In this document: piece after piece, positions 5,124 through 7,945 of the stretch
Numbering within the stretch: position 1 is the first letter of the stretch
Layout of the letters: each line of letters starts with the position of its first letter
Assembly (NCBI GenBank): GCA_026416975.1
Contig: JAOAEC010000003.1
Span: forward strand, 1-43,222
Source of the DNA: Patescibacteria group bacterium
GTDB taxonomy: Bacteria; Patescibacteriota; Microgenomatia; UBA1406; GWC2-37-13
Direction of reading: 5' to 3'
Length of the DNA: 43,222 bases
The notes under the pieces: generated by a model
What the model was told of the DNA's origin: nothing
Database searches by the model: none
The model's input: the letters and a program-made list of their open reading frames with translations, nothing else
Position numbers and translations under genes: made by a program

Positions 5124-5126
5124 TTT

Positions 5127-5831
5127 ATGAAAAAAATAAGTAAGATAGATAAAAAAATAGATATAAATTTAATAGATTTAATCAAAAAAGATTTACCATT
5201 TATTTTTGAAGATGGTAAAGTAAATATTCAAAAACTAAAAAATTTAATAAACGGAAAAGTGATTGAAAATGAAGATGATCGTTTTTATTTTAATTGGTCG
5301 GGTAAGAATAAAGTTTATAAAGCAATTGAATCTCCTGCATACTCTACTTTAATACCGCTTAAGAATAAATCAGTTGACTTTGAAAAAACAGAAAATATAG
5401 TAATTATCGGTGAAAATCTAGAAACATTAAAACTCTTACTTCGGCCATATTTTGGTAAGGTGAAAGTTATATACATTGATCCTCCCTATAACACAGGAAA
5501 AGATTTCATCTATAAAGATGACTTCTCAATTCCTCTTAAAACTTATCTTGAAAAAACAGGTCAAATTGATACAGAAGGTAATAAGCTAACAACAAACACT
5601 GAAACCAGTGGACGATACCATTCAGATTGGCTTAATTTTATGTATCCAAGATTATTTTTAGCAAGAAGTCTTCTAAGTGATGATGGGGTAATTTTTATCT
5701 CAATAGATGACAATGAATTACATCATTTAAGAATGATTATGGATGAGATTTTTGGAGAATTACTAACGACATTTATGACAAATTTTATAAAGAATTTAGG
5801 GCTAAAATCGATGAAATTGACGAAAAATTAG
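5127..5831 (+). pseudogene. Type III restriction-modification methyltransferase (Mod), C-terminally truncated
   Basis: The 234 codons contain IYIDPPYNTGKDF (DPPYNTG at 118-124, the adenine-methyltransferase catalytic motif IV), YHSDWLNFMYPRL and DDGVIFISIDDNE, all typical of Mod subunits. Full-length Mod proteins are usually about 600 residues and carry a C-terminal FxGxG SAM-binding motif, which is absent. Homology ends at DEIFGE (near 5757); the last 25 codons are out-of-frame reading of a serine recombinase gene. The gene was therefore truncated by a deletion joining it to that recombinase. No res gene is present, so I do not expect a working methylase. Confidence 0.8.
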
Positions 5832-6091
5832 CCAATCTTCAACAAGCAGAAGACAATTATTATATTAATGCAAATTACTTATTAGAACTTGCTAACCGTT
5901 CATATGAACTTTTCTTAAGTTCGAAAATGGAAGAAAAAAGACTTCTTATTAAATTGACACTTTCGAACTTAAGAAGCGATGGAAGAACTCTTTATTATAA
6001 CCTTCTAAAACCCTTTAATTACCTTTACGAATTCTCAGATCGTCCAATTGGGCTCCCCCGCCAGGTCTCGAACCTGGAACCTTGTCGTTAA
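5756..6091 (+). pseudogene. 3' remnant of a serine recombinase (integrase), reading into tRNA-Asn antisense
   Basis: In the frame of codon 5756 the sequence reads RITNDIYDKFYKEF, KLANLQQAEDNYY, NYLLELANRSYELF, SSKMEEKRLLIKLTLSNL and LLKPFNYLYEFSDRP. This is the C-terminal coiled-coil and tail region of large serine recombinases. The N-terminal catalytic domain is missing, lost in the deletion that truncated the methyltransferase gene. The frame crosses the 3' end of tRNA-Asn without a stop and ends at TAA 6089-6091 inside the tRNA. This places the integrase gene end at an attachment site in the tRNA. No function is expected from the remnant itself. Confidence 0.8.
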
Positions 6092-6125
6092 CAGCGACCT
6101 GCTCTACCAATTGAGCTACAGGGGA
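6053..6125 (-). tRNA. tRNA-Asn (anticodon GUU)
   Basis: The 73-nt cloverleaf is read on the minus strand. The acceptor arms TCCCCTG / CGGGGGA pair with one G-U; the D arm is GCTC/GAGC, the anticodon loop CTGTTAA gives GUU, and the T arm CCAGG/CCTGG has the TTCGAGA loop. The discriminator base is G and CCA is not encoded exactly (CCC follows). The outermost anticodon-stem pair is G-A. The serine recombinase remnant abuts its 3' side, and a GIY-YIG ORF overlaps its 5' end, so both ends carry mobile-element scars. Confidence 0.93.
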
Positions 6126-6367
6126 ATAAATTTTTTCAAAAACTGTCTTCCACGATAACTTTTTAATTGTTTTTCTCTAATTAATGCTTCTTTTCTGGTT
6201 TTATAAATCTCTTTATAAATTATATTCCATTCACCGTCAAACCTGCTTGTAAAACTGTTTTTAAAAATTCTTTCTTTATGAAAATTTAATCTTTCTTCTA
6301 AGTTTTTAGTTTGACCAATATAAATTTTTTTATGTCTTTTATTATAAAGGACATAAACAAAAAACAT
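6116..6367 (-). CDS. GIY-YIG domain endonuclease (UPF0213/YhbQ-like)
   Basis: The 83-residue product is a single GIY-YIG domain: FVYVLYNKRHKKIYIGQTKNLEERL (VYVL as the GIY strand, YIG at residues 16-18), Arg at ERL, and the conserved helix with EALIREKQLKSYRGRQFL. The family comprises small nucleases of unclear cellular role, common in CPR genomes. Its last four codons and TAG stop lie in the 5' end of tRNA-Asn on the same strand, so the two genes overlap by 10 nt. A copy of that tRNA end lies upstream of its start, so the ORF is bracketed by a short direct repeat. Confidence 0.8.
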   Translation of the reverse strand: MFFVYVLYNKRHKKIYIGQTKNLEERLNFHKERIFKNSFTSRFDGEWNIIYKEIYKTRKEALIREKQLKSYRGRQFLKKFIPL

Positions 6368-6391
6368 ATTTATAAAAAACCTGCTTTTACC

Positions 6392-6407
6392 TCCGCCAAC
6401 TGGCGGA
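6392..6407. repeat. GC-rich palindrome, copy 1
   Basis: TCCGCCAACTGGCGGA has seven-base arms (TCCGCCA/TGGCGGA) around a 2-nt loop. It is GC-rich in an AT-rich background and adjoins the duplicated tRNA fragment. A second copy with the same arms lies 36 nt further on, which suggests a dispersed REP-like palindrome. Confidence 0.7.
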
Positions 6408-6422
6408 TGAGCTACAGGGGAA
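6408..6422 (-). repeat. Duplicated fragment of the tRNA-Asn 5' end
   Basis: TGAGCTACAGGGGAA at 6408-6422 is identical to 6112-6126, which covers the acceptor and D-arm 5' part of tRNA-Asn. The two copies are 296 nt apart and bracket the GIY-YIG ORF. It looks like a target duplication or the scar of insertion at the tRNA. Confidence 0.7.
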
Positions 6423-6442
6423 ATAAAAAAATTAAAAATTCA

Positions 6443-6460
6443 ATCCGCCGGCTGGCGGAT
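6443..6460. repeat. GC-rich palindrome, copy 2
   Basis: ATCCGCC and GGCGGAT (6443-6449 and 6454-6460) are perfect inverted arms around GGCT. The arms match those of the palindrome at 6392-6407. Confidence 0.7.
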
Positions 6461-6643
6461 CAAAAGTTAAAAATTATTTTAAATTCTTCTTTTTAAATAT
6501 TTTCTGCCAAAACTAATTTTAAAAGAGCTTGTTTTTTTGTTGTTAACAAATCTTTGTCCTAACTATCTATTCAAAATTTATATGATAGTTTATCAAGTTT
6601 TTAAATATTTTAACAAAAAAAGCTTAAAATTCTATCGTTTTTA

Positions 6644-7336
6644 TTATCTTACTGCCATCTCTTTATCCGGCGAGCTGCCTTTAAAATAAATTTTGCCGTT
6701 AATGTTGGCTAATTTTTCAATATTATAACTTGGTTGTCTGTCTTTAATCACTTTTTCCACCAAATCATTTAATTTAGGGCCGTATTGATTAATTAGATTT
6801 CGGGGGACATTGATGCGGGATATTTGGGCTTTTTCAACAACAATCCGGCTTTGGTTGTTTTCTATCTCTCCTGAAACCTTAAGATAAACCGGAAGATTAG
6901 CGTTAGGAATTTTAAACTTGGCTGCCGCTTTAATAATCTCATCTTTGGCCACTCCTAAGGCAAGAAGATAATTAAATGCGTCCTGATAATCCACTGTTGC
7001 CGCTCCTTCAACTGTTCCATCAGGATTAACCCGAATCTGAACGTTTTGAAAAGGAAAATATGAATAGTTTTTTCTTCTGTTATCAGCTAAAGCTGTTGCC
7101 TCCTGGCTGGTAAAACTCTGTTCCACGGGATGAGAGCCGGAAACAATCAATGTTTTTCCCAAACTTTTAGCTTTTTCCTCTGAAAGAGATTGATATTCAA
7201 CCGCTAATTTACGATAAGCTGAATCTAGGTCTTTTTTTGTATACTGAACGCCAAGACTTATGGGTTTTAAAAAATAAAAAAATCCAAAAACAACTATTCC
7301 GAAAAAAATAAGAAAAAGAAAAATAATTTTTTTCAT
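6644..7336 (-). CDS. Membrane-anchored hypothetical protein
   Basis: A 230-residue protein with one N-terminal hydrophobic helix (about 4-24) and an extracytoplasmic domain of alternating strands (QNVQIRVNPDGTVEGAATVDY, LPVYLKVSGEIENNQSRIVVEKAQI). The pattern of an amphipathic strand, short helix and C-terminal NGKIYFKG strand suggests a lipid-binding or barrel-like fold, but this is only inference. ATG 7336 is the first start and is followed directly by KK plus the hydrophobic helix. The next gene upstream ends 27 nt away, so it may be the last gene of a three-gene minus-strand unit (8352 to 6644). Family not recognised. Confidence 0.6.
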   Translation of the reverse strand: MKKIIFLFLIFFGIVVFGFFYFLKPISLGVQYTKKDLDSAYRKLAVEYQSLSEEKAKSLGKTLIVSGSHPVEQSFTSQEATALADNRRKNYSYFPFQNVQIRVNPDGTVEGAATVDYQDAFNYLLALGVAKDEIIKAAAKFKIPNANLPVYLKVSGEIENNQSRIVVEKAQISRINVPRNLINQYGPKLNDLVEKVIKDRQPSYNIEKLANINGKIYFKGSSPDKEMAVR

Positions 7337-7363: not shown

Positions 7364-7945
7364 TTAAAAAGGCAAGGTTAAAGGAATATTGTTGTTGGGA
7401 GAGTCTTCTTCTAAATACTTTTTCCAGTTAACTTTAATCTCTTCTTTGCCTTTAGAAGTTAAGTAATAAATTCTGCCGTTTTTAACACCAAAATCAAAAA
7501 CCTCTTTTGTTAATATCACATCACCAATACAATATTTTTTAAGTTCGTCCATCTTCCCCTCTTTATAAAAATCAATTGCCATTAAACCATGACCCGTTTT
7601 TTTCTTTTCTAAAGTCGCTTGTAAAATATCGTTTAGAGCCAGTCTTTTGCCAATTTTTGTACGAATATCTTCCAAGATATCAAAAGCGGCAAAATGAGAA
7701 ACTTCTCCCGGATAATATCGTTGAAGCACTGGAAGATCAAACTCTTTAACATTAAAACCAATGATATAAGAGCTTGATTCCAAAAGAGGAAAAAGTTTAT
7801 TTAACTCATCTTCTAAAAAAACCTTTGTTTGATTATCGCGGTAATCAAAAATCGCTGCCACCGTCACCTCCAATTTTTTAGGGTCGCTAAACTGGCGAAA
7901 AGTATATTTTGTTTCCAGATCTAAAACCAATGGAAACTTTCTCAT
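7364..7945 (-). CDS. DEDD-type 3'-5' exonuclease (RNase H-like, PolB-exo related)
   Basis: A 193-residue protein with the three exonuclease motifs in order: LVLDLET (D9, E11), IIGFNVKEFDLPVL (N65, D70) and KKYCIGDVILTKEVF (Y138, D142), giving the DEDDy arrangement. The family removes nucleotides from 3' ends of DNA or RNA using two metal ions. The length fits a stand-alone exonuclease domain without a polymerase. The ATG follows the stop of the upstream 134-aa gene by 2 nt, so the two are translationally coupled. The specific substrate cannot be read from sequence. Confidence 0.8.
   Translation of the reverse strand: MRKFPLVLDLETKYTFRQFSDPKKLEVTVAAIFDYRDNQTKVFLEDELNKLFPLLESSSYIIGFNVKEFDLPVLQRYYPGEVSHFAAFDILEDIRTKIGKRLALNDILQATLEKKKTGHGLMAIDFYKEGKMDELKKYCIGDVILTKEVFDFGVKNGRIYYLTSKGKEEIKVNWKKYLEEDSPNNNIPLTLPF

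Follow-up and report, generated by a model that had tools for sequence, protein, structure and literature searches.

The tRNA-Asn locus of the window

The window, which is the whole stretch of 43,222 nucleotides that was analysed, carries an intact tRNA-Asn gene, a small GIY-YIG nuclease ORF reading into it on the same strand and, on the other side of the ORF, a second, broken copy of the tRNA 5' end. The features of the locus and its synteny anchor are as follows.

6049-6126, minus strand: intact tRNA-Asn(GTT) (ARAGORN, genome search)
6116-6367, minus strand: GIY-YIG nuclease ORF of 83 aa, catalytic domain only (ORF list, Pfam)
6380-6391, minus strand: segment b, the tRNA continuing past the hairpin, GGTAAAAGCAGG (compare GGTAGAGCAGG in the tRNA), consistent across relatives
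6392-6407, no strand: palindrome TCCGCCAACTGGCGGA at the break, in place of part of the D-loop; most Asn loci have this 16-nt insert at the same point of the tRNA
6408-6422, minus strand: segment A, the orphan copy of tRNA-Asn nt 1-15 (5' end, ARAGORN numbering), the only such copy in the genome
6444-6459, no strand: second palindrome TCCGCCGGCTGGCGGA, just upstream; member of a dispersed genomic repeat, its place in the unit uncertain
7364-7945, minus strand: RNase H-like exonuclease gene (product ending in ...LTLPF), synteny anchor outside the unit (Pfam, synteny)

The tRNA-Asn was also matched by the Rfam tRNA model (6053-6125, 61.8 bits), and the genome search found no second tRNA-Asn in the 672-kb draft genome. 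The 83-aa ORF matches PF01541 over residues 1-71 (E 7.8e-16), which places it in the GIY-YIG superfamily, and the catalytic residues Y5, Y16-I17-G18, R26 and E65 are invariant in the alignment (9 relatives). Pfam recognised no further domain beyond residues 1-71 and no separate DNA-binding module, and the ORF is the sole Pfam GIY-YIG match in the draft. Its TAG stop codon at 6118-6116 lies within the tRNA-Asn gene (tRNA nt 8-11). The first-pass annotation had let the ORF share its last four codons and the stop with the tRNA; the stop is indeed inside the tRNA, but about three sense codons are shared, the tRNA-encoded end being the last two bases of an Ile codon followed by CCC CTG TAG.

The 15-mer TGAGCTACAGGGGAA is present at 6112-6126 and again at 6408-6422, with a start-to-start spacing of 296 nt around the ORF, just as had been noticed at first sight. 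Read on the minus strand, the upstream copy runs TTCCCCTGTAGCTCA-TCCGCCAGTTGGCGGA-GGTAAAAGCAGG and the intact tRNA TTCCCCTGTAGCTCA-ATT-GGTAGAGCAGG. The upstream copy is a tRNA fragment, made up of the 5' part and about 12 nt more, which is split by a 16-nt palindrome replacing a piece of the D-loop; it is longer than the bare 15-mer that was originally described. By our estimate, a 15-nt identity within about 300 nt would be expected some 3e-7 times. The other matches to tRNA-Asn in the 672-kb draft at E<=10 were the upstream 15-mer and one 75% match over 53 nt only. Since a single tRNA-Asn was found in the draft and the upstream 15-mer is its only other exact fragment, the repeat is not a product of chance.

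No intron family was found by an Rfam scan of positions 5900-6700, which gave nothing above noise except the tRNA. A group I intron in a tRNA gene is catalytic and splits the tRNA, usually at the anticodon. Such an intron was rejected for the window, in which the tRNA-Asn is continuous and has no Rfam intron match; the gene is whole and unsplit according to both ARAGORN and Rfam, and the endonuclease ORF lies outside any intron. In three other loci (L157, L162 and L182), sequence resembling a group I intron splits the anticodon region of the tRNA-Asn next to the nuclease, and ARAGORN finds no tRNA. The ORF list contains no integrase ORF between the two tRNA copies of the window. The GIY-YIG gene is the sole ORF with a recognised domain within the unit, and no Y1 (HUH) transposase was found there.

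On the other side of the tRNA-Asn, a remnant at 5747-6091 (plus strand) runs antisense into the 3' end of the tRNA and overlaps a truncated DNA methylase gene at 5124-5831 (plus strand, PF01555). The remnant is homologous to the C-terminal part of what seems to be a large serine recombinase (L007, 2-1465), and its homologues come after the tRNA-Asn in L004, L007, L136 and L145. As these recombinase-like homologues adjoin its other end, the tRNA-Asn is occupied from both sides.

Recurrence of the arrangement beside tRNA genes

We searched 72 genomes of the same family with the Asn-type protein of the window, which gave up to 14 matching places per genome; a match to a small GIY-YIG nuclease is present in 65 of them. 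The loci examined comprised 110 from family genomes and 82 from public genome and viral contigs. An adjacent tRNA on the same strand was found by ARAGORN in 106 distinct loci representing 17 isotypes, a count biased towards Asn because an Asn-type protein served as the query. The ORF lies upstream of the tRNA in 88 of these loci and downstream in 18. Among the 110 family loci, 51 are directly adjacent to a tRNA gene, which bears out the expectation that relatives would also carry the nuclease beside tRNA genes. In no locus did a tRNA lie solely on the opposite strand, against 109 loci with one on the same strand, and just 1 of 28 UPF0213-like paralogues, used as an internal control, lies near a tRNA.

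A fragment of the same tRNA (10 nt with at most one mismatch, on the other side of the ORF from the tRNA) was detected in 85 of the 106 distinct loci, so that a duplicate of the host gene end accompanies the ORF there. It went undetected at this threshold in the other 21; nucleases at fixed sites lacking a tRNA repeat, the pattern named at the outset as contrary to a tRNA-targeting unit, are not the general case. The fragments carry a GC-rich hairpin at the break in 73 of 85 cases, compared with a mean of 6% of random segments from the same loci. In an independent local-alignment test, 41 of 51 family loci scored above the best of 50 shuffles. Many studies contributed independent assemblies that show the arrangement, and single-contig genomes show it too. 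A coincidence or assembly artefact, in which a GIY-YIG gene happens to lie near a tRNA and the repeat arose by chance, could be suspected from the draft metagenome assembly and the shortness of the repeat; it is refuted by the recurrence in independent assemblies, the shuffles and the controls, and its probability is now negligible. The chance origin of the repeat in particular was rejected on the genome search and the recurrence.

As read from these loci, the unit consists, from the outside in, of a displaced tRNA half, a palindromic hairpin, about 10 nt of tRNA, the GIY-YIG gene and a complete tRNA. The nuclease genes encode 80-100 aa and the unit takes up about 300 bp. It occurs in two forms: the ORF lies either 5' of the intact tRNA, with a broken 5' half as in the window, or 3' of it, with a broken 3' half. 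The hairpin, the mirrored 3' form and the breadth over isotypes and phyla go beyond what the first-pass annotation contained. A stop codon inside the tRNA was found for 57 of the 88 upstream ORFs, mostly as TAG at nt 8-10, and the final residues of these nucleases (IPL, IPR, IPG, ILGP etc.) are the acceptor stem in translation. This tRNA-encoded tail is not required, since the remaining ORFs stop just before the tRNA.

Several loci depart from the common plan. Tandem arrays occur in L186, L205, L207, L222, L230 and G309:C22:90291-91061; they consist of whole units or, in L205, of ORF-less ones, each a tRNA fragment with a hairpin and promoter-like sequence. In ten loci (L057, L083, L114, L118, L079, L091, L104, L110, L120 and L122), the nuclease lies about 80-280 nt 3' of a tRNA-Tyr, tRNA-Gln or tRNA-Arg, and the spacer contains strong inverted repeats and no second tRNA fragment; these are possibly a third form. 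In L189, L190 and L228, a second ORF just downstream of the GIY-YIG ORF starts within the anticodon part of tRNA-Asn. It reads like an HNH nuclease, as if another unit had entered the same tRNA.

Break position, palindrome and the empty site

The position of the break could be placed in 82 loci. In the Asn units it falls mostly after nt 13-15, with the tRNA resuming at nt 17-19 (a few are longer or shifted), and most of these units have the insert TCCGCCAGCTGGCGGA at the break. The Lys units of the main clade are broken after nt 22-24 and resume at nt 31-34, alike for ORFs 5' and 3' of the tRNA. Similarly, the 5' and the 3' form of the Gly units (L014 and L019) share a break after nt 25. Resumption at nt 32, as in the Lys units, is also seen in a His unit that the tree puts within the Lys clade; another two Lys units, which lie outside the main clade, are broken in the D-loop. 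Because both forms agree in Lys and Gly units and the His and Lys outliers conform as well, the break follows the nuclease clade and is independent of which tRNA half is re-formed. In a tree built from 179 proteins, 29 changes of adjacent-tRNA isotype were required, compared with at least 53 in 200 label shuffles; when the Asn rows were left out, there were 26 changes against at least 35 in the shuffles. The nuclease clades track both the tRNA isotype and the break position.

One palindrome is common to several clades and phyla, and the Phe, Glu and Gln units use other palindromes. The palindrome TCCGCCARYTGGCGGA is also dispersed in the draft genome, in A-rich flanks and mostly within long open frames: it was found on contigs C4, C9, C41 and C42 and in the window at 6392-6407 and 6444-6459 (loci L032-L042), which makes 11 places in this genome with up to 2 mismatches. 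It is present in 76 of 287 Patescibacteria genomes and is commoner in those with Asn- or Lys-type nucleases (12/18 vs 61/269 genomes, p 2e-4). The association is significant, but many genomes have the palindrome without the nuclease, and simple mobilisation of the palindrome by the nuclease was therefore rejected.

These data bear on an alternative in which a mobile unit has a nuclease whose substrate is the palindrome, extruded as a cruciform or hairpin, and not the intact tRNA. It would cut the outer end of its own unit or other copies of the palindrome, the short tRNA repeats would recombine to amplify, excise or transfer the unit, and isotype specificity would come from the tRNA homology arms instead of sequence recognition by the protein. 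In its favour, the nuclease consists of the catalytic domain alone, solved structures include the structure-specific SLX1 as a weak relative, hairpins are present in most fragments, the same palindrome serves several clades and phyla, tandem arrays exist with and without the ORF, and the dispersed palindrome is enriched with the Asn- and Lys-type nucleases; such a target would also remove the problem of self-cutting. The hairpin sequence, however, varies by clade, as the differing Phe, Glu and Gln units show, the palindrome is present in many genomes that lack the nuclease, and a break position fixed within each clade suggests recognition of the tRNA as the target. We regard this alternative as unlikely but keep it in consideration because the intact tRNA looks cuttable, a DNA-binding module is lacking and cleavage of the tRNA gene is putative.

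The duplicated half matches the tRNA beside which it lies. Among 38 Asn loci, the orphan fragment is identical to the local tRNA over 13-14 nt in 31, and the same fragments differ from the tRNAs of other loci by a mean of 4.9 mismatches; the repeat is thus usually the local tRNA end, as foreseen in the first-pass annotation. In loci with a recognisable D-stem, the 7-nt acceptor strand matches the local tRNA in all 23 Asn and all 8 Lys cases. A half simply copied from a foreign donor would leave a mismatch, in conflict with the local match. Either the donors of most insertions carried the same tRNA, or insertion copies the local half, or later conversion or selection restores the match.

The uninterrupted tRNA-Asn region that was to be expected in relatives was found. 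The gene corresponding to 7364-7945 precedes tRNA-Asn in many of them; in four genomes (L135, L136, L139 and L152) it is followed by a plain tRNA-Asn without the ORF, and in a fifth (L145) by an ORF-less hairpin scar. In the filled loci L003, L007, L030 and L124, the orphan fragment lies about 36-93 nt past the anchor gene, and in the empty L135 the intact tRNA lies 53 nt past it. The intact tRNA is 374-483 nt from the anchor gene in L003, L007, L030 and L124 and in L138. A TATAAT-like, promoter-like box precedes the fragment in several filled loci. Since it is the fragment and not the intact tRNA that keeps the ancestral distance from the gene and the TATAAT-like box, the fragment is the ancestral 5' end of the tRNA gene. 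The empty and filled alleles belong to different genera and not to strains of one species, so that the comparison carries less weight than one between strains would, and in the window itself an extra gene lies between the anchor gene and the unit.

Related nucleases occur with tRNAs in Bacteroidota, Ignavibacteria, Cloacimonadota and one Woesearchaeota bin, although bins can be contaminated. The Asn-type nucleases of other classes share 55-66% identity with that of the window, compared with 57-70% within the family, and the SmpB proteins of most of those other-class genomes share 40-49%. An exact hairpin-broken tRNA-Asn D-arm was found 5 times in 380 Patescibacteria genomes, each time (5/5) beside such a nuclease. 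The dN/dS ratio of about 0.1-0.3 in relatives, where dS was measurable, indicates purifying selection on the nuclease. The window protein had no match at E 1e-5 in 50,697 phage records; two weak loci were found in viral contigs, and a plasmid collection gave three weak matches below 60% identity. With the phage collection empty for this protein and the viral and plasmid matches weak, a phage origin was rejected.

The gene could instead be a tRNA-linked gene maintained by the host and not mobile by itself, for example a regulator with a tRNA-mimic hairpin leader, which is inherited vertically and occasionally lost. The co-orientation with the tRNA and the leader-like fragment directly before the start codon could reflect regulation, and so could the purifying selection and the exact local match of segment A. 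This explanation is at odds with the patchy presence at one locus within one family, the similarity of nucleases across classes, which is out of line with SmpB, the 17 isotypes with both orientations of the broken half, and the tandem arrays and ORF-less relics. We consider it improbable. The folding of a leader RNA as the whole explanation was rejected: the fragments fold with z-scores between -1.4 and -3.2, to which the palindrome contributes most.

A probable homing-type unit in tRNA genes and its relation to known systems

The anatomy, its recurrence, the clade-set break, the ORF-less loci, the purifying selection and the wide distribution are established at the sequence level. On these grounds, the window probably contains one member of a family of homing-type mobile units inserted inside tRNA genes. 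This supports the original suggestion of a homing-type unit that targets a tRNA; the nuclease is inferred to cut the tRNA gene and to drive its own spread. In the proposed course of events, the nuclease would make a double-strand break or a nick in a tRNA gene lacking the ORF, at the site that the hairpin marks today, and recombination with a filled allele during repair would copy the unit in. The hairpin may then keep the displaced copy from being a target. The old tRNA promoter would drive a joint transcript of nuclease and tRNA, from which RNase P/Z would release the tRNA. The unit would be tolerated and the tRNA remain functional because a complete tRNA copy would be processed from this transcript. 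Where the stop codon lies inside the tRNA, cleavage by RNase P would strip it from the nuclease message, and production of the nuclease would therefore depend mainly on unprocessed precursors. The hairpin interrupts the broken copy, but the intact tRNA beside the ORF carries an uninterrupted site. The intact tRNA thus looks cuttable, and classical self-protection through disruption of the target is not apparent.

Integrative elements use tRNA genes as attachment sites and re-form the tRNA on insertion. The units share with them the insertion in a tRNA gene and the re-formed tRNA but differ in having no integrase, in re-forming 5' as well as 3' halves, in the hairpin within the broken copy and in their size of about 300 bp. 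Free-standing homing endonucleases usually, although not universally, have a separate DNA-binding region which provides specificity for a long site. The nuclease of the window resembles them in being encoded by a non-intron ORF with ORF-less alleles; with its 83 aa, it has no such separate region.

SegB of phages T4/T6 belongs to the tRNA region and is a homing endonuclease of the free-standing GIY-YIG type (PMC13096335; Brok-Volchanskaya 2008, cited there and in PMC3984707). It is reported to cut tRNA genes internally and to cause the locus to be amplified in tandem, and self-cutting of the donor is said to be limited (PMC13096335). By that description, the units are comparable to SegB in that a GIY-YIG nuclease adjoins tRNA genes and tandem arrays are formed (L186, L205, L207 and L222). 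They differ from SegB as described there in lying inside a cellular tRNA gene, in the hairpin-broken half-tRNA, in the isotype-specific clades and in having the catalytic domain only, and their cutting is presumed. A close parallel in architecture is provided by the mORFs of fungal mitochondria, known from Allomyces atp6 and from Glomus atp6, atp9, cox2 and nad3, the atp9 case being of the GIY-YIG type (PMC3630166). There, an endonuclease ORF enters a gene, a duplicate end keeps the gene whole and the native end is displaced to the far side (PMC3630166). In both systems, a duplicated end of the host gene comes with the endonuclease ORF. The mORFs, however, occupy protein genes of mitochondria, involve the C-terminal end only and supply a foreign end, whereas the units described here lie in tRNA genes of bacteria, duplicate either half, mostly match the local tRNA in the duplicate and have a palindrome at the break.

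GIY-YIG ORFs in the rRNA genes of CPR bacteria occupy sparse sites and were judged to be outside homing (PMC11270868). They share with the present units the phylum, the small size, the GIY-YIG type and the location in genes for structural RNAs, and neither kind is a group I or II intron; that paper deals with rRNA genes only, and a word search of it returned no mention of tRNA. REP palindromes with RAYT transposases (PMC3733652, PMC3116915, PMC3686654) offer, as those papers present them, another likeness, namely a single nuclease gene flanked by short palindromes that are also dispersed in the genome. A GIY-YIG nuclease instead of a tyrosine (HUH) transposase, and tRNA genes as the target, set the units apart from the REP-RAYT systems so described. 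Each ingredient has a known parallel, and we found no report of their combination in tRNA genes in the open-access literature. Descriptions of tRNA-embedded GIY-YIG units with hairpin-broken half-tRNAs were likewise not found there, and an earlier description elsewhere is possible.

More tentatively, the units might represent a new minimal class of mobile element, in which a bare GIY-YIG nuclease with a hairpin enters tRNA genes of Patescibacteria and some other phyla, duplicating the local half, and maturation of the tRNA limits the nuclease through loss of its stop codon. This broader view is possible rather than probable, and it raises the idea of regulation of a nuclease by tRNA maturation. 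The units would explain hairpin-broken half-tRNAs and odd ORF ends which are likely mis-annotated by pipelines. Their nucleases form a natural set in which target positions can be presumed for about 17 isotypes, and they bear on the question of how one tRNA gene is found by a nuclease that lacks a DNA-binding module. Genomes of Patescibacteria commonly encode small GIY-YIG nucleases to which no role is usually assigned; a large share of these genes now has a concrete setting, as units within tRNA genes whose clades correspond to the tRNA isotype.
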